Positions 3 through 61,925 of a stretch of 64,000 bases of DNA are shown here, in pieces (position 1 is the stretch's first letter; the number at the start of each line of letters is the position of its first letter). Source of the stretch: Janthinobacterium sp. LM6. Its GTDB lineage: Bacteria > Pseudomonadota > Gammaproteobacteria > Burkholderiales > Burkholderiaceae_D. A program made the translations under genes and the position numbers. A model generated the notes under the pieces. That model saw nothing but the letters and a program-made list of their open reading frames with translations. It was not told the origin of the DNA and did not search any database. The stretch is from positions 1,116,001-1,180,000 of the forward strand of contig NZ_CP019510.1 of NCBI RefSeq assembly GCF_002002885.1, in the 5' to 3' direction.

Positions 3-1085
3 AAACTGGGCCTGGACCCGACTGCACCCGACTTGCATCTGGGCCACACTGTTGTGCTGAACAAGATGCGCCAGCTGCAAAACCTCGGCCATCAAGTCAT
101 TTTCCTCATCGGCGATTTTACTTCCATGATCGGCGACCCTTCGGGCCGCAACGTCACGCGCCCGCCGCTGACCAAGGAACAGATCGAGATTAACGCGATG
201 ACGTATTTCGCGCAAGCATCTTTAGTGTTGGACGCCAGCAAGACCGAAATCCGCTATAACTCCGAGTGGTGCGATCCGCTGGGCGCGCGCGGCATCATCC
301 AGCTCGCTTCCCACTACACGGTGGCGCGCATGATCGAGCGCGACGACTTCACCAAGCGCTTCCAGGGCGGCATTCCTATTTCCGTACACGAATTCCTGTA
401 CCCGCTGATGCAAGGCTACGACTCGGTGGCCCTGAAATCGGACCTGGAACTGGGCGGCACGGACCAGAAATTCAACCTGCTGGTGGGCCGCGAACTGCAA
501 AAGCAGTACGGACAGGAGCAGCAGTGTATTTTGACCATGCCTCTGCTGGAAGGTTTGGACGGCGTGGAAAAAATGTCCAAGTCGAAGAATAACTACATCG
601 GCATCACGGAACCGGGCAACACCATGTTCGCCAAGCTGATGAGCATTTCCGACGTCATGATGTGGCGCTACTACGAGCTGCTGTCGTGGCGCTCGATCGC
701 CGAACTGGCGCAGCTGAAGCGCGAAGTCGAGGAAGGCCGCAATCCGCGCGATGCCAAGGTTGCGCTGGCGCAAGAGATCGTCGCGCGCTTCCACTCGCAG
801 CAGGCGGCGGAAGATGCGCTGGCCGATTTCGTCAACCGCTCGAAGGGCGGCATCCCCGACGATATCCCGGAAGTGACCTTGGCCGGCGCACCGCTGGGCA
901 TTCCGCAACTGCTGAAACAGGCGGGCCTGTGCCCGTCGACGTCGGAAGCCATGCGCAAGATCGACCAGGGCGGCGTGCGCATCGACGGCACCGTCATCAG
1001 CGACAAGGGCTTGCAAGTGGAAGCCGGTCAGTTCGTGTTGCAAGTTGGCAAGCGCAGCTTTGCGCGCGTCACCTTGACGGCATGA
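3..1085 (+). CDS. tyrS: Tyrosine--tRNA ligase, 5' end missing
   Basis: Charges tRNA-Tyr with tyrosine in the cytoplasm. The frame is already open at the window edge ([16 protein letters not shown]), so the start lies upstream. The class I HIGH-like motif appears as HLGH near the edge and the second signature as KMSKS, in the block EKMSKSKNN. The C-terminal part is an S4-like RNA-binding domain, starting near [10 protein letters not shown] and containing [13 protein letters not shown]. About 360 residues are visible, so only roughly 40-60 are missing for the long TyrS form. The stop overlaps the start of dtd (ATGA), suggesting translational coupling of tyrosine charging with D-aminoacyl-tRNA clearance. 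A TTG codon at 33 is internal and is not the true start. Confidence 0.95.
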
Positions 1086-54479: not shown

Positions 54480-57032
54480 ATGTCTTCCATTCTTACCCTG
54501 CGCCAGTCCGTACTGGCCATCGGCCTGGCCTTTGGCGCCAGCGCCGCCACCCCAGTTGTCTTCGCCGCCGAAGCCGACACCGAAGAAGCCGCACCGCAAG
54601 TGCTGCCCGAGGTACGTCTGCAGGCCGAGCGCGAGTCCGTGGGCGAACAGCGCCTGGACAAGCGCCAGATCGAGGCCATGAATGGCATCGACGGCAATAT
54701 CACCAGTTTGTTGCGCATCAATCCCAGCGTGCAATTCGATAACAAGCAGCAAGCCTCCGCCACCCAGGGCGAGCTGGCGCCGGCCGACATCAGCATCAAC
54801 GGCGCCAAGTTCTACGACAATCTGTACCAGATGGACGGCATGTCGCTCAACAACGACATTGGCCCGAACAGCAGCAACCCCGCCAGCAATGCCACGCCGC
54901 CATCGGCCAGCCAGGGCTTTGCCGTCGACACCAGCCTGCTGTGCGACGTGACGGTGCTCGATTCGAACATCGGCGCCGAATATGGCCGCTTCAAGGGCGG
55001 TGTCGTCAAAGCCGATACCTGCGTGCCCACGCGCAAGCTGGCCGGCCAGGTGTCCGTGGAAAGCACGCGCTCGGCGTGGATGCAATACAAACTCAGCGAC
55101 AGCCAGCGGGAAAGCGCCGCCAATTCGGCCACGGCCGATTTGCAGCCAGCGTTCGAGAAATGGACGTACCGCGCCGCGCTGCAGGGCAAGGTGACGGAGA
55201 ATTTCAGCCTGATCGGCAGCTTCATCCGCAAGACGTCGGAGATTCCCCTGAACGGCTACGGCAATGGCTTGCAGAGCGCAAGCGACGCGAACCGCAAGGT
55301 GCAGCGGCGCGGCAGCGACAACGCCTTCGTGCGTGGCTTCTGGACCATCACGCCCGGCGTGCTGGCCGACTTTTCCCTCATGCATGCGCCATCCGAAGGC
55401 GATTATTTTATCGCCAACACCAGGAACAGCAGCTATCACCTGAAGAGCGGCGGCAATGGCATCAACCTGGGCCTGACGCACCCCGTGGGGTGGCTGGGCA
55501 ATGCCACGGCGGAACACCGCTTGAGCTGGAGCAAGATGGACAGTTCGCGCGACGCCGATGCCACCGTCTGGAAAGCGTGGCGCTATTCGAGCGACAAGAA
55601 CTGGGGCGTCAAGACGGGCACGGGCGCGACGGGCTGGGCCAGCAATGAAGGCGGCTACGGCGACATTGACCAGGAACAGGAAAGCGCCCAGTACCAGGGC
55701 AAGCTGAAGTGGGAGCCGCTCGACTTGCTGGGCATGTCGCATACTTTCCAGGCCGGCCTGGAACTGGGCACGCAGCATTCGCGTTACCAGCGCAACACTA
55801 CCTATGAGCAATACACGGCATCCGTCAACACCAATACCTGCAATAGGGTGGGCGGCGGCGTCGATAGCCAGTACTGTTCGCTGGCGACGCCATGGAATGC
55901 GGCCTCGAACGTGCGCGGCCAATACCTGGCCTCGCGCATGATTTACTACGCGGGCGGCTATGAGCTGAGCAACAAGACGCGCGGTGCTTTCCTGCAAGAT
56001 GACGTCAGGCTGGGCGATGTGCGCGTGCGCGTGGGCGCGCGCTACGACAGCGACGACCTGTCGCCGAAGTCCAGCATCGCGCCGCGCCTGTCGGCGTTCT
56101 GGGACGTGGCGGGCAAGGGCACGACGCAAGTCGAGCTGGGCGCCAACCGCTACTATGGCCGCAATTTCTTCAATTTCTATGCCCAGTCGAAACGCCTGGC
56201 ACTGCAGACCTCGCCGCAAACGCGTACCTTGTCGGGCGGCTTGCTGAAGGATTGGGCCGCGCCCGTGATGGCCAGCAACTGGAGCTGGCTCAAGCTCGGT
56301 GACATGAAGGTGCCGTACACGGATGAAAAACTGCTGGGCATCAGCCAGCAGTGGGGCGGCGTGAAGTGGAGCGCCAAGCGCGTGCTGCGCGAAGGCCGCG
56401 ACGAGATGGTGTACCACGTGGTGTCGGCCGCCAATTTTTATTGGGATAACGTGGGCCGCAGCGACAGCAAGGTGTGGATCCTGTCCGCCGAGACCATGCG
56501 CCCGCTGCGCTGGGGCGGCAGCGCCACGCAGGTGCAGTTCGGCTACGACCGCACGCGCACCACCAGCACGCATGCCACCTACGACGATTCCCTGAGCGAC
56601 CTGACGAACGAGCTGGATAAATTCATCTATTACCAGGGCAAGTTCGTGCGCTGGGCTGACCGTCCGGCCGACAATTACAATCGCCCCTGGACGGCGCGCC
56701 TGCTGCTGTCGACCGATATCCCAGCGTATCGCCTGAAGGTGGACAATTTCTTCCGCATGCGGGGGCCGGAAACGAATATGGTCGCCACGGGCGATGCGCT
56801 GTCATTCGACGGCGACGTGGCGAAGGTCTACCAGGACGTTTCGACCAGCAAGTCTTTCACCTGGGACATGCGCGTGCAGTATGCGCTGCCGAAGACGGGG
56901 CCGGGCGAAGGTTTCGTGAACCTGGGCATCGAAAACGTCGCCAACCGCAGCAATCCCCTGTTTGATTCCAGCAACGGGGTGGTCTTTGAAAAAGGCCGCC
57001 AGTTCACGCTGGAACTCGGTTACCGTTTCTAA
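54480..57032 (+). CDS. TonB-dependent outer membrane receptor
   Basis: A TonB-driven importer, 850 residues, for a scarce ligand such as a siderophore or metal complex. The signal peptide covers about 1-29 (ending ATPVVFAAE). The plug domain contains LPEVRLQAERESV as the TonB-box region, MNGIDGNITSLLRINPSVQ and ADISINGAKFYDNLYQMDGM. The beta-barrel ends in the assembly signal FTLELGYRF. Two cysteines in the plug (LLCDVTV and DTCVPTR) could form a disulfide. An upstream Fur-like box suggests iron repression. The ligand is unknown. The next gene, 25 bases downstream, is a di-heme peroxidase. Confidence 0.92.
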   Translation: MSSILTLRQSVLAIGLAFGASAATPVVFAAEADTEEAAPQVLPEVRLQAERESVGEQRLDKRQIEAMNGIDGNITSLLRINPSVQFDNKQQASATQGELAPADISINGAKFYDNLYQMDGMSLNNDIGPNSSNPASNATPPSASQGFAVDTSLLCDVTVLDSNIGAEYGRFKGGVVKADTCVPTRKLAGQVSVESTRSAWMQYKLSDSQRESAANSATADLQPAFEKWTYRAALQGKVTENFSLIGSFIRKTSEIPLNGYGNGLQSASDANRKVQRRGSDNAFVRGFWTITPGVLADFSLMHAPSEGDYFIANTRNSSYHLKSGGNGINLGLTHPVGWLGNATAEHRLSWSKMDSSRDADATVWKAWRYSSDKNWGVKTGTGATGWASNEGGYGDIDQEQESAQYQGKLKWEPLDLLGMSHTFQAGLELGTQHSRYQRNTTYEQYTASVNTNTCNRVGGGVDSQYCSLATPWNAASNVRGQYLASRMIYYAGGYELSNKTRGAFLQDDVRLGDVRVRVGARYDSDDLSPKSSIAPRLSAFWDVAGKGTTQVELGANRYYGRNFFNFYAQSKRLALQTSPQTRTLSGGLLKDWAAPVMASNWSWLKLGDMKVPYTDEKLLGISQQWGGVKWSAKRVLREGRDEMVYHVVSAANFYWDNVGRSDSKVWILSAETMRPLRWGGSATQVQFGYDRTRTTSTHATYDDSLSDLTNELDKFIYYQGKFVRWADRPADNYNRPWTARLLLSTDIPAYRLKVDNFFRMRGPETNMVATGDALSFDGDVAKVYQDVSTSKSFTWDMRVQYALPKTGPGEGFVNLGIENVANRSNPLFDSSNGVVFEKGRQFTLELGYRF

Positions 57033-57057
57033 TGACAACGACCATGACGGCAGGCGC

Positions 57058-58206
57058 ATGAATATCGCAACCCACCTGAAAAAAACCACCTTCGCCGTGG
57101 CCGCCCTGCTGGCGGGCGGCGCGGGCCTGATGACGAGCATGGATGGCCGCGCCAGCGATGCCGTTCCCCCCAGCGTGGCTTGCGCGGCGGACAAGGGCTG
57201 GGACATGGCCTGCTTGCGCCAGAGGTACGCGCAGCCCATCGCCAGCTGGCCCCGTCCCCAGGTGGCCGACGGCGTTACGCCGCAGGAAATGGCGCCCGTC
57301 TCGGCCATGCCGCCGGCGCAGGTGCCGCCGCAAGTGGCGGCGCTGGGACAGCGCCTGTTCAACGACCCGCGCTTGTCGCGCGCGAACGCGGTGGCCTGCA
57401 TCAGCTGCCACAGTCCCGCCCACAGCTTTGCCGACAGCAAGCGCACCTCCGTCGGCCACGAAGGCCGCCTGGGCCAGCGCAATGCGCCGGGCCTGCTGGG
57501 CGTGGGCCAGCTCAAGCCGCTGTTCTGGGATGGCCGCGCCGCTACCCTGGAAGAGCAGGCGCTGGGCCCCTTGCAGCATCCGGACGAGATGGCCATGGAC
57601 GTGCCGGCCCTGGCGGCCAAGCTGTCCGCGCTCGATGACTATCCGGCGCAGTTCGACGCCGCCTTCGGCCGGGGCGCCGGCGTGACCCTGCCGCGCATCC
57701 TGACGGCGCTGGCCGATTACCAGCGCACTTTGTTGCCGCCTGTCACCCGCTTCGATACCTTCCTGGAAGGCCGGCGCGCGGACTTGAACGACCGCGAGCT
57801 GCTGGGCCTGCACCTGTTCCGCACCAAGGCGCGCTGCATGACCTGCCACAGCGGCGCCTTGCTGACGGACCAGCAATTCCACAACCTGGGATTGACGTAT
57901 TACGGGCGCAAGAAATATGAAGACCTGGGACGCTACCTGGTGACGGGCAAGGATGAGGACGTGGGCAAGTTCCGCACGCCCGGTTTGCGGGGCGTGGCGC
58001 AATCGGGGCCGTGGATGCACAACGGCTTGTTCCCGCAGATGGTGGGTTTGCTGAACATGTACAACGCGGGCATGTCGCGCCCCGTGCCGCAGAATGCGCA
58101 GCAGGCGGCCGATCCGAAGTTTCCCGTCACGTCGCCCCTGCTGCAGCGCTTGCAGCTGACGTCCGATGAAATCATCGCGTTGAAGAGTTTTCTGGAAGTG
58201 CTGTAG
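57058..58206 (+). CDS. Di-heme cytochrome c peroxidase / MauG family protein
   Basis: A 382-residue periplasmic di-heme protein. The N-terminal signal is MNIATHLKKTTFAVAALLAGG. Two heme-attachment motifs, CISCH (114-118) and CMTCH (260-264), match the spacing of bacterial cytochrome c peroxidases and MauG-like enzymes. Other family blocks: LGQRLFNDPRLSRANAVACISCH, RNAPGLLGVG, LFWDGRAATLEEQALGPLQHPDEM, FRTPGLRGVAQSGPWMHNGLF. It could detoxify hydrogen peroxide or modify another protein. Close spacing to the TonB receptor suggests a joint transcript and a role tied to the imported ligand. The start is chosen for the signal peptide. Confidence 0.92.
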   Translation: MNIATHLKKTTFAVAALLAGGAGLMTSMDGRASDAVPPSVACAADKGWDMACLRQRYAQPIASWPRPQVADGVTPQEMAPVSAMPPAQVPPQVAALGQRLFNDPRLSRANAVACISCHSPAHSFADSKRTSVGHEGRLGQRNAPGLLGVGQLKPLFWDGRAATLEEQALGPLQHPDEMAMDVPALAAKLSALDDYPAQFDAAFGRGAGVTLPRILTALADYQRTLLPPVTRFDTFLEGRRADLNDRELLGLHLFRTKARCMTCHSGALLTDQQFHNLGLTYYGRKKYEDLGRYLVTGKDEDVGKFRTPGLRGVAQSGPWMHNGLFPQMVGLLNMYNAGMSRPVPQNAQQAADPKFPVTSPLLQRLQLTSDEIIALKSFLEVL

Positions 58207-58212
58207 CCGCTC

Positions 58213-58236
58213 GGCCGGCTGCGCCCGCAGCCGGCC
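58213..58236 (+). terminator. Terminator-like hairpin after the TonB receptor/peroxidase operon
   Basis: GGCCGGCTGC, a GCCC loop and GCAGCCGGCC form a perfect 10-bp stem seven bases past the stop, followed by a short TTTAT. It is a good stem with a weak T-tract. Confidence 0.7.
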
Positions 58237-58318
58237 TTTATCTGCTTGCGGCGCCGATATTGTATAGACGTTTGGCGCCGCCCAATCTCTCCAAATTCCA
58301 CATTTCAGGGGCTTCCCC

Positions 58319-58338
58319 GATATATTTTCCAAATTGGA
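58319..58338. promoter_or_regulatory. AT-rich palindrome upstream of the six-cysteine peptide cluster
   Basis: TTCCAA-A-TTGGAA with AT-rich flanks (ATTTTCCAA / TTGGAAATT) forms an odd-centred dyad in the sequence before the first small secreted protein. It could be an operator. A TTGACT nearby (near 58357), followed by TAAAAT, is promoter-like but too closely spaced. Positions are approximate to a few bases. Confidence 0.4.
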
Positions 58339-58406
58339 AATTTATCGGAAGGAAACGTTGACTCTAAAATAAGTGCGGTCTATATTCGATTTTGTAGCAA
58401 GCAAAG

Positions 58407-58475
58407 ATGAAATTTCTTACGACTGGTCTGACGCGATTGCCTGAGGCAATTGCCAACATGGAGAGTAGTAAATGA
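58407..58475 (+). CDS. Possible 22-residue upstream ORF coupled to the first six-cysteine peptide
   Basis: An ATG opens a 22-codon frame (MKFLTTGLTRLPEAIANMESSK) whose TGA overlaps the ATG of the next gene (ATGA), an arrangement that normally means translational coupling. A short hairpin ATTGCC-TGA-GGCAAT (58436-58450) lies inside it. Its own ribosome-binding site is weak, and the next gene has an independent GGAGAG site. It may therefore be accidental. Confidence 0.3.
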   Translation: MKFLTTGLTRLPEAIANMESSK

Positions 58476-58657
58476 AAAAGATCGCAGCATTTATTTTTAC
58501 CCTGGGATTGAGTGCTTCCTATGCCTTCGCTTCGGATATCGGCTGCTCTGTCTGCGAGGAAGAATGGCGGGAATGCACGATGCAAAATGGCGACAGGTCC
58601 CCATTTTGCATCGGCAGCTACAAAAACTGTCTGAAAGTCTGCGAGATCGGCGCCTGA
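58472..58657 (+). CDS. Small secreted six-cysteine protein (copy 1)
   Basis: A 61-residue protein not recognised from any named family. A signal peptide (MKKIAAFIFTLGLSASYAFA) is followed by a mature part of about 41 residues with six cysteines spaced C-x2-C-x6-C-x10-C-x6-C-x3-C (SDIGCSVCEEEWREC ... FCIGSYKNCLKVCEIGA). The layout is nearly mirror-symmetric, suggesting a disulfide-stapled helical hairpin. A GGAGAG ribosome-binding site supports the start. Copies 2 and 3 lie 0.5 and 0.8 kb downstream on the same strand. Possible roles include a metal or redox carrier or a secreted peptide; nothing proves any of them. Confidence 0.8.
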   Translation: MKKIAAFIFTLGLSASYAFASDIGCSVCEEEWRECTMQNGDRSPFCIGSYKNCLKVCEIGA

Positions 58658-58742
58658 TATCCGTTTTTTTGTATTGCAAGGCGGCCGGTAGCCGTATTTT
58701 TCACTGGCCGCCCCTCGATCATCCACGCCTCCGATAACACCT

Positions 58743-59123
58743 ATGATGCAGAAAAAAATTAAAACCATCGCCATGTATGGCTTGATCCTGGCGGCCGGCC
58801 TGGGCAGCGGTTACGGCCTGTCCTTGCTGCCTGGCTTGCTCAAAGCGGATTACACGGAAGGCAATTACGCCGCGTATTTCCCGAATGCACAGGCCAAGGT
58901 GGTGCTGTACGGCACGGACTGGTGCGCTTATTGCGCCAAGACGCGCGCGTATTTCAAGGAAAACAAGATCGAATTCGTCGATCTCGATATCGAGAAATCG
59001 CCAGCAGCGAAACAAGCCCATGAAGCACTGGGCGGCGGCGGCGTGCCCGTGGTGTTGATCGGCAACCGCAAGATCCAGGGTTTCAATACGGGCGCGCTGG
59101 AAGCGGCGCTGAAGAAAATCTGA
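58743..59123 (+). CDS. Membrane-anchored glutaredoxin/thioredoxin-fold protein
   Basis: A 126-residue protein. An N-terminal hydrophobic segment (about 8-30, AMYGLILAAGLGSGYGLSLLPG) without an obvious cleavage site anchors it. The C-terminal domain (about 50-126) is glutaredoxin-like: AKVVLYGTDWCAYCAKTRAYFKENKIEFVDLDIE, active site CAYC at 61-64, cis-proline in GGGVPVVLIGN, and the NTGALEAALK end. The fold would lie in the periplasm, unlike classical cytoplasmic glutaredoxins. It sits between copies 1 and 2 of the six-cysteine proteins, suggesting it may oxidise, reduce or shuffle their disulfides. Spacing is 85 and 72 bases. Confidence 0.85.
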   Translation: MMQKKIKTIAMYGLILAAGLGSGYGLSLLPGLLKADYTEGNYAAYFPNAQAKVVLYGTDWCAYCAKTRAYFKENKIEFVDLDIEKSPAAKQAHEALGGGGVPVVLIGNRKIQGFNTGALEAALKKI

Positions 59124-59195
59124 TTGCCGGATGGCGCGTAAGAGACGGCGCGCCATGGATGTACGTCATCGTCTGTCAATTCAACAGGAGTGCTT

Positions 59196-59387
59196 ATGTT
59201 CAAGAAACTGGGTTTCTTTTTGTTTGCCATGGGCGTCAGCGCCTCGTACGCGATCGCCGGCGGCGAACCGGAATGCTATATGCAGTGTGACGACGCTCTG
59301 GACCAGTGCGTGATCGCCCGTCCAGGGTCGGCAGGCGCCTGCACCAAGGTTCATCAGCTCTGCTATAACCGCTGCGCTCAAGACTAG
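59196..59387 (+). CDS. Small secreted six-cysteine protein (copy 2)
   Basis: A 63-residue protein. The signal peptide MFKKLGFFLFAMGVSASYA precedes a mature part of about 42 residues with cysteines spaced C-x3-C-x6-C-x10-C-x6-C-x3-C (PECYMQCDDALDQC ... ACTKVHQLCYNRCAQD). Its signal-peptide DNA differs from copy 3 at only 3 of the first 63 bases, while the mature regions share little beyond the cysteine frame and a CYMxxxDxC-like core. An ACAGGAG ribosome-binding site supports the ATG; a GTG two codons upstream is less likely. The function is unknown. Confidence 0.8.
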   Translation: MFKKLGFFLFAMGVSASYAIAGGEPECYMQCDDALDQCVIARPGSAGACTKVHQLCYNRCAQD

Positions 59388-59478
59388 CATCAAATCAAAT
59401 TCACCGGCTGGCCAGTACGCTGACCAGGCCGGCTGAGTCACCTCATCCGTCCTGCAGTCTTTCCACAAAGGAGTACTT

Positions 59479-59667
59479 ATGTTCAAAAAACTGGGTTTCT
59501 TTTTGTTTGCCATGGGCGTCAGCGCCTCGTACGCCATGGCCAGCAGTAGCGCCGATATTTCGGAATGCCAATCCGAGTGCTATATGGCGCTCGATGCCTG
59601 TGTCATGGAGTTCAGTGTCCCTTCATGCGTCCGTGCCAATAAAGCGTGTCTGCAGCGCTGCGGCTAG
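59479..59667 (+). CDS. Small secreted six-cysteine protein (copy 3)
   Basis: A 62-residue protein. The signal peptide MFKKLGFFLFAMGVSASYA is identical to copy 2, followed by a mature part of about 41 residues with cysteines spaced C-x3-C-x6-C-x8-C-x6-C-x3-C (SECQSECYMALDAC ... SCVRANKACLQRCG). The ribosome-binding site (AAAGGAG) and the bases around it also resemble copy 2, consistent with a tandem duplication covering the 5' part. The protein ends at a terminator, so the cluster probably ends here. Confidence 0.8.
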   Translation: MFKKLGFFLFAMGVSASYAMASSSADISECQSECYMALDACVMEFSVPSCVRANKACLQRCG

Positions 59668-59684
59668 CATGCGCTTGTCAGCGG

Positions 59685-59735
59685 GATAAAGCACGGCGAT
59701 GCTGTTGACAGGCATCGCCGTTTTTTATTTTATCC
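59685..59735. terminator. Bidirectional terminator after the six-cysteine cluster
   Basis: ACGGCGATGC (59693-59702), a 9-base loop and GCATCGCCGT (59712-59721) are followed by TTTTTT. An outer GGGATAAA / TTTATCCCC pairing extends the structure. The cob(I)alamin adenosyltransferase gene converges from the other side and slightly overlaps the right edge. Confidence 0.88.
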
Positions 59736-60284
59736 CCGCGTGCGGTCATGCCGCCACAGCACGTCGCTGCCGCCGGCGAAGCGGTTCAGCACGCGCGACA
59801 GCACGAACAGCAGGTCCGACAGGCGGTTCACGTACTGGCGCGGATGTTCGTGCAGCGGTTCCGCATTGGCCAGCGCGACGATGCTGCGCTCGGCGCGGCG
59901 GCACACGGTGCGGCACACGTGCGCCAGCGAGGCGGCGCGCGAGCCGGCCGGCAGGATGAATTCACTCAAGGCGGGCAAGTCCGCATTGTATTTCGCCAGC
60001 AGGTCGTCGAGGCGCAGCACGTGCTCTTCCTTGATCAACTGGTAGCCGGGGATGCAGATTTCGCCGCCCAGGTCGAACAAATCGTGCTGGATGGCCACCA
60101 GCTCGTCGCGCAAGGCGTCGGGCATGGCTTCGCACAGCAGCAAGCCGATATTGGAGTTCAGTTCGTCCACGTCGCCCATGGCGTGGATGCGGACACTGTC
60201 CTTGCTGGTGCGGCTGCCGTCGCCCAGGCCGGTGCTGCCATTGTCGCCCGTGCGCGTGGCGATTTTCGAAAGTCGGTTGCCCAT
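59730..60284 (-). CDS. PduO-type cob(I)yrinic acid a,c-diamide adenosyltransferase
   Basis: Transfers adenosine from ATP to cob(I)alamin to make adenosylcobalamin. It has 184 residues. Diagnostic blocks: KIATRTGDNGSTGLGDGSRTSKDSVRIHAMGDVDELNS (ATP-binding N-terminus), QHDLFDLGGEIC, FILPAGSRAASLAHVCRTVCRRAERSIVAL and YVNRLSDLLFVLSRVLNRFAG. The start at MGNRLSKIATRTG is the family N-terminus; a longer in-frame extension looks non-coding. No other cobalamin gene is nearby. It is divergent from glcD with a 150-bp gap. Confidence 0.94.
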   Translation of the reverse strand: MGNRLSKIATRTGDNGSTGLGDGSRTSKDSVRIHAMGDVDELNSNIGLLLCEAMPDALRDELVAIQHDLFDLGGEICIPGYQLIKEEHVLRLDDLLAKYNADLPALSEFILPAGSRAASLAHVCRTVCRRAERSIVALANAEPLHEHPRQYVNRLSDLLFVLSRVLNRFAGGSDVLWRHDRTRG

Positions 60285-60434
60285 GATGTCGATCCTGTCA
60301 AGAAGAATGGGGGCAGCATACGACACCGCGCGCCGCCTGGCCCCGGATTTGCCCGCAAATAGGACAAAAAATGCGCTGCGCGCCACTTTTGTGCTTACAA
60401 TCGTTGCACACCCATGCACTTTTGCTCACATCCT

Positions 60435-61925
60435 ATGCTCAATGCCGCCCCTGAATCCGGATCGACCGCCGCGCGCCAGCAAGCCGTCGTCGCGGCCCTG
60501 CTGGCCGTGCTGCCGGCCCGCTGCGTGCTGTCCGACGCGGAAGATACGCGCCCGTACGAATGCGATGGCCTGGCTGCCTACCGCCAGCTGCCGATGGTGG
60601 TGACCCTGCCGGACACGGAGGAACAGGTCATCGCCATCCTCGGCGTCTGCCGCGAGTTGCAGGTGCCGATCGTGCCGCGCGGCGCGGGCACGGGCCTGTC
60701 GGGCGGCGCCTTGCCCATCGCCGACGGCGTGGTGCTGTCGACGGCGCGTTTGAACCGCATCGTGCGTCTTGACGCGTATGCGCGCACGGCCGTGGTGCAG
60801 CCGGGCGTGCGCAACCTGGCCATTTCCGAAGCGGCGGCGCAATATGCCTTGTACTACGCGCCCGACCCTTCCTCGCAGATCGCCTGCAGCATCGGCGGCA
60901 ACGTGGCGGAAAACTCGGGCGGCGTGCATTGCCTGAAATACGGCTTGACCGTGCACAATGTGCTGCGCGTGCGCGTTGTTACTATTGATGGTGACGTGCT
61001 GGAACTGGGCGGCGAATGCCTGGACTCGCCCGGCCTCGATTTGCTGGCCGTTTTTATCGGCTCCGAAGGCATGCTGGGCATCGTCACGGAAGTGACGGTC
61101 AAGCTGATCCCGAAGCCGGCCACGGCGAGGGTCATCATGGCGTCCTTTGACGACGTCGTCACGGGCGGCAATGCCGTGGCCAACGTGATCGCGGCCGGCA
61201 TCATCCCGGCCGGCCTGGAAATGATGGACCGGACGTCGTCGCGCATGGTCGAACCGTTCGTCAAGGCCGGCTACGACATCGACGCGGCGGCCATCTTGCT
61301 GTGCGAAGCCGATGGCACGCACGAGGAAGTGGAAGAGGAAATCGCCCGCATGACGGCCGTGCTGGAAGGGGCGGGCGCCAGCGCCATCGCCGTGTCGCAG
61401 TCGGAAGCGGAGCGCATGAAATTCTGGTCCGGCCGCAAGAACGCCTTTCCCGCCGCGGGGCGCATCTCGCCCGACTACTACTGCATGGACGGCACCATCC
61501 CGCGCAAGCGCCTGGCCGAAGTCCTGACGGGCATCGCCGCCATGGAAACGACGCATGGCTTGCGCTGCGCCAACGTGTTCCACGCGGGCGACGGCAATTT
61601 GCACCCGCTGATCCTGTTCGACGCCAACATGCCCGGCGAATTCGAGCGCGCCGAAGCGTTTGGCGCGGACATCCTGGCCCTGTGCGTGGCCGTCGGCGGC
61701 ACGATTACGGGCGAGCATGGCGTGGGCATGGAAAAGATCAATTCCATGTGCGTGCAGTTTACGCGCGCCGAACTCGATGCCTTCTTTGCCGTCAAGCGCG
61801 CCTTCGATCCCCACGCCTTGCTGAATCCGGACAAGGCGATTCCCACCTTGAACCGCTGCGCCGAATTCGGCAAGATGCATGTGACGGCGGGACGCCTGCC
61901 GTTCGCCAACCTGCCCCGTTTTTAA
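60435..61925 (+). CDS. glcD: Glycolate oxidase FAD-linked subunit
   Basis: Oxidises glycolate (or D-lactate) to glyoxylate with FAD, passing electrons to the GlcE/GlcF subunits. It has 496 residues. The FAD PCMH domain shows VVTLPDTEEQVIAIL, VPRGAGTGLSGGALP and SSQIACSIGGNVAENSGGVHCLKYG, then GSEGMLGIVTEVTVKL. The C-terminal cap contains NVFHAGDGNLHPLILFD, TGEHGVGMEK and a last NPDKAIPT. The start at MLNAAPESGS follows a poor ribosome-binding site; an ATG seven codons upstream is an alternative. First of glcD-E-F. Confidence 0.95.
   Translation: MLNAAPESGSTAARQQAVVAALLAVLPARCVLSDAEDTRPYECDGLAAYRQLPMVVTLPDTEEQVIAILGVCRELQVPIVPRGAGTGLSGGALPIADGVVLSTARLNRIVRLDAYARTAVVQPGVRNLAISEAAAQYALYYAPDPSSQIACSIGGNVAENSGGVHCLKYGLTVHNVLRVRVVTIDGDVLELGGECLDSPGLDLLAVFIGSEGMLGIVTEVTVKLIPKPATARVIMASFDDVVTGGNAVANVIAAGIIPAGLEMMDRTSSRMVEPFVKAGYDIDAAAILLCEADGTHEEVEEEIARMTAVLEGAGASAIAVSQSEAERMKFWSGRKNAFPAAGRISPDYYCMDGTIPRKRLAEVLTGIAAMETTHGLRCANVFHAGDGNLHPLILFDANMPGEFERAEAFGADILALCVAVGGTITGEHGVGMEKINSMCVQFTRAELDAFFAVKRAFDPHALLNPDKAIPTLNRCAEFGKMHVTAGRLPFANLPRF

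Follow-up and report, generated by a model that had tools for sequence, protein, structure and literature searches.

Six-cysteine peptide genes are linked to a putative membrane redoxin gene in Janthinobacterium and related bacteria

We analyzed a 64-kb stretch of the 6.29-Mb chromosome of Janthinobacterium sp. LM6 (NZ_CP019510.1, positions 1,116,001 to 1,180,000; hereafter, the window), in which genes for three small six-cysteine peptides and one redoxin lie together. The genomic linkage of such peptides with such redoxins is strong. We hypothesized that the two constitute a two-part extracytoplasmic system, in which stapled hairpin peptides would be served by a dedicated membrane redoxin that forms or reshuffles their disulfides; we give this hypothesis a slightly better than even chance of being correct.

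Results

Peptides and redoxin of the window

The four genes lie on the same strand (+) in the order peptide 1, redoxin, peptide 2 and peptide 3. Reading of the sequence and its open reading frames (ORFs) reproduced the coordinates, residue counts, cysteine spacing and gene order on which the original prediction was built. Peptide 1 (58472..58657, +, 61 aa) has the frame C-x2-C-x6-C-x10-C-x6-C-x3-C, peptide 2 (59196..59387, +, 63 aa) C-x3-C-x6-C-x10-C-x6-C-x3-C and peptide 3 (59479..59667, +, 62 aa) C-x3-C-x6-C-x8-C-x6-C-x3-C; the leaders of all three, like the anchor of the redoxin, were assigned by eye. Three ORFs of the window, and no others, had the six-cysteine frame, against 0.03 expected from 100 rounds of residue shuffling with a pattern that was written after the frame had been seen and did not require a signal peptide. 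That is, the frame in the window is not due to chance.

The redoxin (58743..59123, +, 126 aa) has a glutaredoxin fold, a CAYC active site (codons at 58923..58934, +), a GFN turn and one N-terminal hydrophobic segment. It is probably membrane-anchored and faces the periplasm, because N-terminal lysines and a single hydrophobic segment were recognized by eye. Its score against Pfam PF00462 was 48.5 bits (gathering cut-off, 22.9), which places it in the glutaredoxin superfamily, and its score against TIGR02196 (YruB-family), 64.2 bits, was under the curated cut-off of 88.55. In classical glutaredoxins, a GG-D motif forms the glutathione-binding turn. In an alignment to 1fov, the window redoxin has GFN in place of this turn and does not qualify as a classical glutathione-dependent glutaredoxin. 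Therefore, the fold in the glutaredoxin label given earlier stands and the classical type does not; with GFN in place of GG-D, the protein is closer to NrdH/YruB-type redoxins. These provide the best NCBIfam and Protein Data Bank (PDB) sequence matches of the redoxin domain (TIGR02196; 7c10) and share the GF turn, whereas the redoxin here appears N-terminally anchored, scores lower than the cut-off of that family and is linked to peptides. Among 66 distinct relatives, the active site was CPFC in 19, CGYC in 18, CPYC in 17, CAYC in 4, CSYC in 3, CSFC in 3, CGFC in 1 and CQYC in 1, and the turn was GF in 58 (GF[N/D/K] in 55) and GY in 8. The redoxin was 100% identical over 126 residues in a Janthinobacterium contig (L085), and its dN/dS was 0.085 over 18 loci of the genus.

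Linkage of peptides and redoxin

We assessed linkage in a redoxin locus set from which identical sequences had been removed, counting a redoxin as anchored at E<1e-18 and a peptide as any mirror-symmetric, leader-bearing ORF. A symmetric peptide lay within 1.5 kb of 72 of the 107 anchored redoxins, on the same strand in 72/72 cases, and of none of the 24 unanchored and 5 weak anchored redoxins. The symmetry rule was written after the forms had been seen; therefore, the controls matter. Two symmetric matches, neither judged protein-like, were found in 273 kb of 15 other-redoxin loci, and none in 173 kb of far flanks from 14 chosen loci. After clustering at 80% identity, 37/67 anchored clusters (E<1e-18) had a peptide compared with 0/24 unanchored ones; at E<=1e-40, a peptide stood beside 55 of 64 genes and in 22 of 28 clusters. 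Many of the 35 anchored redoxins without a peptide came from the class sample and from the family of genome G1056, and these may be another subfamily. The class sample gave a redoxin match in 50/369 genomes and a peptide in 1 of the 29 loci rescanned with a rule that needs x6 gaps and misses 3..3 forms; the same loci were rescanned with the wider rule in the anchored-redoxin count. In the family of G1056, 18/197 genomes gave a redoxin match and 7/20 loci had a symmetric peptide.

Among the named genomes, 29 of 48 redoxin loci (L085-L113) had the longer anchored match. A profile-detected peptide lay within 1 kb in 24 of these, on the same strand in 22; the other two (L105, L107) had it on the opposite strand with a variant frame. 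The nearest peptide was 3.0 kb away in L088, and L092, L095, L097 and L110 had no profile-detected peptide, the last (Undibacterium sp. TS12) carrying a four-cysteine hairpin frame that the profile missed.

Outside the genus, 18 genomes had both partners, 2 the peptide only (both weak), 7 the redoxin only and 240 neither at a redoxin threshold of E<=1e-33 (P=2e-20). The figure of 240 rests on the assumption that 27 of the sampled genomes belong to the genus, and the table omits 11 genomes whose redoxin matches fell between 1e-20 and 1e-26; all 11 were peptide-negative. With all redoxin matches at E<=1e-20, the counts were 18, 2, 18 and 229 (P=4e-16). Because the genomes share ancestry, these P values exaggerate independence; better evidence comes from the patchy co-occurrence inside the genus and from the different insertion sites. 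Upon re-examination, six of the seven redoxin-only genomes carried a divergent cysteine peptide near the redoxin, with a six-cysteine frame in G165, G195 and G235 and a four-cysteine 3..3 frame in G263, G278 and G302; G281 had none. Conversely, 8 of 20 peptide loci had no redoxin nearby, and each such genome has a redoxin elsewhere.

Within the genus, 26/40 genomes carried the redoxin (E below 1e-50), the same 26 carried peptides and 14 had neither. The whole cassette (58211..59727, +) is either there or missing as a unit between genes for a MauG-like di-heme protein and, on the opposite strand, a cobalamin adenosyltransferase, which bound the four-gene block. The adenosyltransferase gene was present in 14/14 cassette-free genomes. 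In three of these (L169-L171) the site was empty: positions 58210 and 59728 sat about 40 bp apart, so that the entire block 58211-59727 is absent. In 10 of the 14, the upstream flank was not aligned within the stretch compared, and L181 had about 790 bp of other sequence between the flanks.

The genes might, of course, be coincidental neighbors in a genomic island without any functional link, as peptides far from any redoxin could suggest. We regard this as very improbable, since several genera of one family show the linkage at different sites, as do Andreprevotia and Lysobacteraceae, and the unanchored redoxins served as negative controls. The original prediction had turned on homologs; relatives with the same cysteine frame exist and recur beside the redoxin, and the substrate–oxidoreductase pairing that it proposed is borne out at the genomic level by the co-occurrence and linkage counts. 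No third gene recurs as widely beside the peptides or the redoxin, as judged from crude gene calling with unannotated clusters and with ORFs below 90 aa left unclustered.

Scaffold and diversity of the peptide family

A 10-row peptide profile (E<=1e-3) matched at least 41 of the 294 genomes of the family sample, in 7 of 44 genera, and at least 4 of the 399 genomes of the order sample; both counts are lower bounds, as at most 21 and 15 candidates, respectively, were scored per genome. The order matches were the LM6 genome itself, G403 and G538 (peptide plus redoxin each) and G353, which looks spurious because it has internal stops and gave nothing on a rescan of the locus. Over 168 loci, many of which belong to one genus, we collected 193 distinct peptides: 178 had six cysteines, 6 had four, 3 had seven, 2 had eight, 1 had ten and 3 had two or fewer. 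In the two halves of the six-cysteine peptides, the C-x6-C gap was kept in 178/178 and 176/178 and the outer x3 gap in 149/178 (x2 in 28) and 169/178, around a loop of 4-13 residues, although this constancy is partly by construction, as the profile favors its own frame. A rescan near the redoxin that was free of this bias, asking only for a leader and at least four cysteines, recovered mirror-symmetric frames in most peptide-bearing loci; two loci had an asymmetric frame, 2-6-7-9-2. The mirror is preserved in versions with two, three and four rungs (6..6, 3..3, 3-6..6-3 and 3-6-3..3-6-3); the rung number varies among 2, 3 and 4, and the symmetry is mostly constant.

AlphaFold2 modeled helical hairpins for two of the mature window peptides, peptide 1 (pLDDT 87.5) and peptide 2 (helices 4-20 and 25-41, pLDDT 94.3), in agreement with the hairpin foreseen from the cysteine pattern. 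The best match in a structural comparison of 15 chains was acrorhagin I (6ux5, sea anemone; E 0.018), and neurotoxin B-IV (1vib, ribbon worm) scored E 0.13. Both are eukaryotic toxins and both scores are weak, which does not establish common ancestry; ATP-synthase c-rings ranked second and third, indicating that helical hairpins of any kind match. In 130 distinct cores, an aromatic residue or histidine (F/W/Y/H) occupied helix-1 position 9 in 58% and helix-2 position 5 in 48%.

The window holds three copies, as first described; elsewhere, the genes form arrays of up to 23 detected peptides. This number was reached, together with two redoxin genes, in arrays L065 and L090 (Massilia sp. BJB1822), the last peptide of L090 being cut by the locus end. 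A Pseudoduganella violacea array (L091) had 17 detected peptides, and one in Rugamonas sp. CCM 8940 (L096) had 13 with three redoxins. Across five arrays compared, non-cysteine helix residues agreed on average in 10-17% and leaders in 40-45%; array members are alike mainly in their cysteines and leader. Genes for an M48 peptidase, a GDSL hydrolase and a LysR-type regulator interrupt arrays L065, L090 and L091 (Pfam on the L090 copies), and look like local synteny rather than parts of the system.

This diversity bears on two other roles for the cysteines. First, the peptides could be thiol metal carriers, with reduced cysteines coordinating Cu(I) or Zn(II) within pairs of hairpins in the manner of exported copper storage proteins (Csp), and with the redoxin as the reductant that keeps them loadable. 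The cysteines are invariant where most other residues vary, a redoxin partner fits a reductant, and Csp, for which a CXXXC motif is a known detail, also has cysteines facing into a helical bundle. However, Csp is a cysteine-lined four-helix bundle as a monomer, whereas the hairpins modeled here, as monomers, are two-helix units with six cysteines (four or eight in other members). Under a metal role, amplification would favor near-identical copies, yet the array copies agree at only the few helix residues given above; exported thiols would normally be oxidized; and the absence of a widely recurring third gene extends to this case, in unannotated clusters that were not searched for metal genes. 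The metal- or redox-active carrier suggested at the outset gained no support, and we consider metal carriage unlikely. Second, the peptides could cycle with the redoxin as a reversible redox relay or thiol buffer that moves electrons across the envelope. The tight genomic coupling would suit such a relay, as would the CGYC (18/66) and CPYC (17/66) sites, which are reminiscent of DsbC and DsbG and suit reducing or isomerizing roles. A buffer, however, does not need as many as 23 sequence-diverse versions, a relay partner should keep its docking surface but the peptide surfaces vary, and nested structural rungs would seem to make poor exchangeable disulfides. A relay is, in our estimate, a touch less likely still than metal carriage.

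The peptide cores were mostly acidic, with a mean net charge of -2.3; 167/190 were negative and 6/190 positive, and none reached +3. Cationic membrane-lytic antimicrobial peptides or bacteriocins might be expected from the weak resemblance of the fold to α-hairpinins and venom hairpins and from carriers such as Janthinobacterium and Lysobacteraceae, which are known for antagonism. The acidic cores speak against membrane lysis, and no immunity- or exporter-like third gene recurred under crude gene calling. We hold lytic peptides to be distinctly unlikely. Acidic cores would suit small periplasmic proteins, gathered in arrays, that confer immunity to toxins or phages or act as decoys for them, as would the diversity of array members and the patchy cassette that is present or absent as a unit. 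Nevertheless, neither the three window peptides nor the redoxin had a match in PADLOC, and a search with the redoxin as the query found no match in a plasmid collection and one weak match (residues 55-113) in viral contigs; neither collection was queried with the peptides, and no search was aimed at toxin genes. To our knowledge, redoxins do not commonly accompany immunity genes. An immunity or decoy role seems improbable to us, on a par with metal carriage.

Small leader-bearing, cysteine-rich proteins with other frames (e.g., 2-6-7-9-2) were also seen in L140 (LM6 chromosome, C1:1474049), L235, L238, L104 (8246-8848), L105 (9551-9802) and L107 (9574-9825), some on the strand opposite to an anchored redoxin; they are perhaps a sister family. 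In addition, an orphan six-cysteine peptide lies near an EF-Tu-like gene (by eye) on the LM6 chromosome (L078, C1:725000-744900; peptide at 735071), and the L078 block carries redoxin and peptides in Rugamonas (L094, L096) and Duganella sacchari (L111).

Selection on peptide genes

Over five groups of peptide orthologs, dN/dS was 0.02-0.35 in the cores and 0-0.08 in the leaders. The peptide 1 group (16 distinct coding sequences (CDS)) had a core value of 0.19, and the peptide 2 group (17 CDS) was the fastest-evolving of the five at 0.35. Positive selection on the cores was not found in these groups, in which core values excluding cysteines were 0.03-0.47. The orthologs are under purifying selection and look like real genes, and this selection argues for specific functions that have been retained throughout the genus, not for an arms race under way at present. 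The spread of paralogs is probably old.

The leader DNA of peptides 2 and 3 (59196-59252 and 59479-59535) was 98% identical in the window locus (L007), compared with 47% for the helix DNA; in eight loci of the genus, the values were 92-100% and 42-49%. The leader may have been conserved or exchanged as a module, with a faint hint of exchange. Within-genome leader identity (0.968, n=8 genomes) was barely above between-genome identity (0.958, P=0.037); leader conservation is strong, and gene conversion was not shown.

Known families and similar systems

As the original prediction had stated, no described family fits the peptides: no Pfam or NCBIfam family matched the window peptides above its curated cut-off. 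For 45 hand-picked members, matches to these libraries were scattered (best E 1.2e-4), the commonest (5/45) being to models of N-terminal (leader) segments. The cysteine-rich model TIGR04453 (Lepto_8Cys) matched 2 of the 45 weakly (best E 0.018). In PHROGs, searched with the three window peptides only, no match was significant (best, phrog_7508 to peptide 3, E 0.021). Among the matches listed from the open-licence PMC literature, no description of the family was found.

Several known systems share single features. CHCH proteins are defined by twin CX9C or CX3C cysteine pairs; the window frames have x6 instead and fall outside this definition, whereas divergent 3..3 members of the peptide family would fit twin CX3C. 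Mia40, the mitochondrial relay for CHCH proteins, is not a glutaredoxin-fold protein. Bacteriocins with private oxidoreductases include sublancin (BdbB) and pediocin (PedC), in which a dedicated thiol oxidoreductase gene likewise adjoins that of a disulfide-bonded secreted peptide. Those systems are, however, Gram-positive and include immunity and exporter genes; here, the peptides are many and acidic, and no such recurrent third gene was seen with crude gene calling. Plant α-hairpinins are also short and secreted, with mirror-symmetric cysteines and a helix-loop-helix fold that the models of two window peptides share. Their published patterns (PMC11591084) are CX3CX4-20CX3C (four cysteines) and CX3CX3CX4-20CX3CX3C (six). 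The four-cysteine form beside some redoxins (C-x3-C-x13-C-x3-C in Undibacterium sp. TS12) fits the former, whereas the window frames (2/3-6-10/8-6-3, with an inner x6) fit neither, and the peptides here are bacterial, acidic and redoxin-paired. The aphid bacteriocyte peptide BCR3 has the same rung spacing in its frame, CX3CX6CX21-25CX6CX3C (PMC9604261); it is an insect peptide with a longer loop, and that source gives its bonding as unknown.

Flanking signals and neighboring genes

A sigma-70-like promoter (TTGACT-17-TATATT, 58358..58386, +, 10/12 matches) lies before the block and a terminator-like 11-pair stem with a T-run (59693..59721, +) after it; a single transcription unit is therefore plausible, although the promoter-like sites are weak, with 2 found against 1.3 expected. 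An Rfam search of 57000-61000 gave no match. The di-heme protein scored 161 bits against PF03150 and fell under the cut-offs of the MbnH- and MauG-type NCBIfam models. Directly before this MauG/CCP-type gene lies an 850-aa ORF that is TonB-dependent-receptor-like by eye; the two span 54480-58206 and could possibly form a pair of receptor and oxidizing enzyme.

Discussion

We propose that each exported peptide would form a hairpin of two antiparallel helices, which disulfide rungs in mirror symmetry hold together. The most likely rungs are C1-C6, C2-C5 and C3-C4, with the aromatic layer between C3-C4 and C2-C5. The membrane-anchored, periplasmic redoxin would be a disulfide oxidase devoted to these peptides or, as we think more likely, an isomerase. 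Once folded, the hairpins may serve as stable scaffolds, in the periplasm or outside it, whose surfaces can vary almost freely, and the gene sets would grow by duplication, with the leader conserved and the core diverging.

The LM6 genome has one DsbC match and one DsbB match; therefore, general disulfide handling very likely exists in the cell. DsbA prefers consecutive cysteines and DsbC repairs non-consecutive cases, and an oxidase that pairs cysteines by order of emergence tends to mispair nested rungs. Since nesting makes every proposed rung non-consecutive, a private catalyst would make sense despite DsbB and DsbC; the simplest account would be a membrane redoxin that isomerizes or oxidizes its own peptides. 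Tight use of glutathione by the redoxin is disfavored by its GF turn. Added oxidized glutathione can take the place of missing DsbA in the periplasm of E. coli (PMC10344953), which implies that an electron partner would be available for the redoxin.

It is possible, and we put it forward tentatively as something short of an even chance, that the peptides form an expandable repertoire of secreted stapled hairpins acting on neighboring microbes or eukaryotic hosts. Such a repertoire would be comparable to conotoxin-like sets, with one leader, a 2-4-rung scaffold, free surfaces, up to 23 members and a private redoxin. An oxidoreductase beside a disulfide-bonded secreted peptide is known already, as are stapled helical hairpins in plants and animals; we regard the hypervariable arrays and mirror-symmetric two-, three- and four-rung scaffolds with a putative membrane redoxin in proteobacteria as new and well removed from these.

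If the proposed system is correct, bacteria would possess a stapled-hairpin scaffold that occurs naturally, is heavily diversified and comes with a folding enzyme of its own, and the redoxin would open to testing a disulfide catalyst devoted to its substrate in a cell with genes for DsbB and DsbC as well. Cysteine hairpins with mirror symmetry would then have arisen not only in plants, insects and venomous animals but also in bacteria. Peptide engineers would gain a natural design series from the variable rung number, and small proteins missed by current family libraries are assigned a likely partner. In certain bacteria of soil and water, the family looks like an undescribed counterpart of the stapled hairpins found in plants and venoms.

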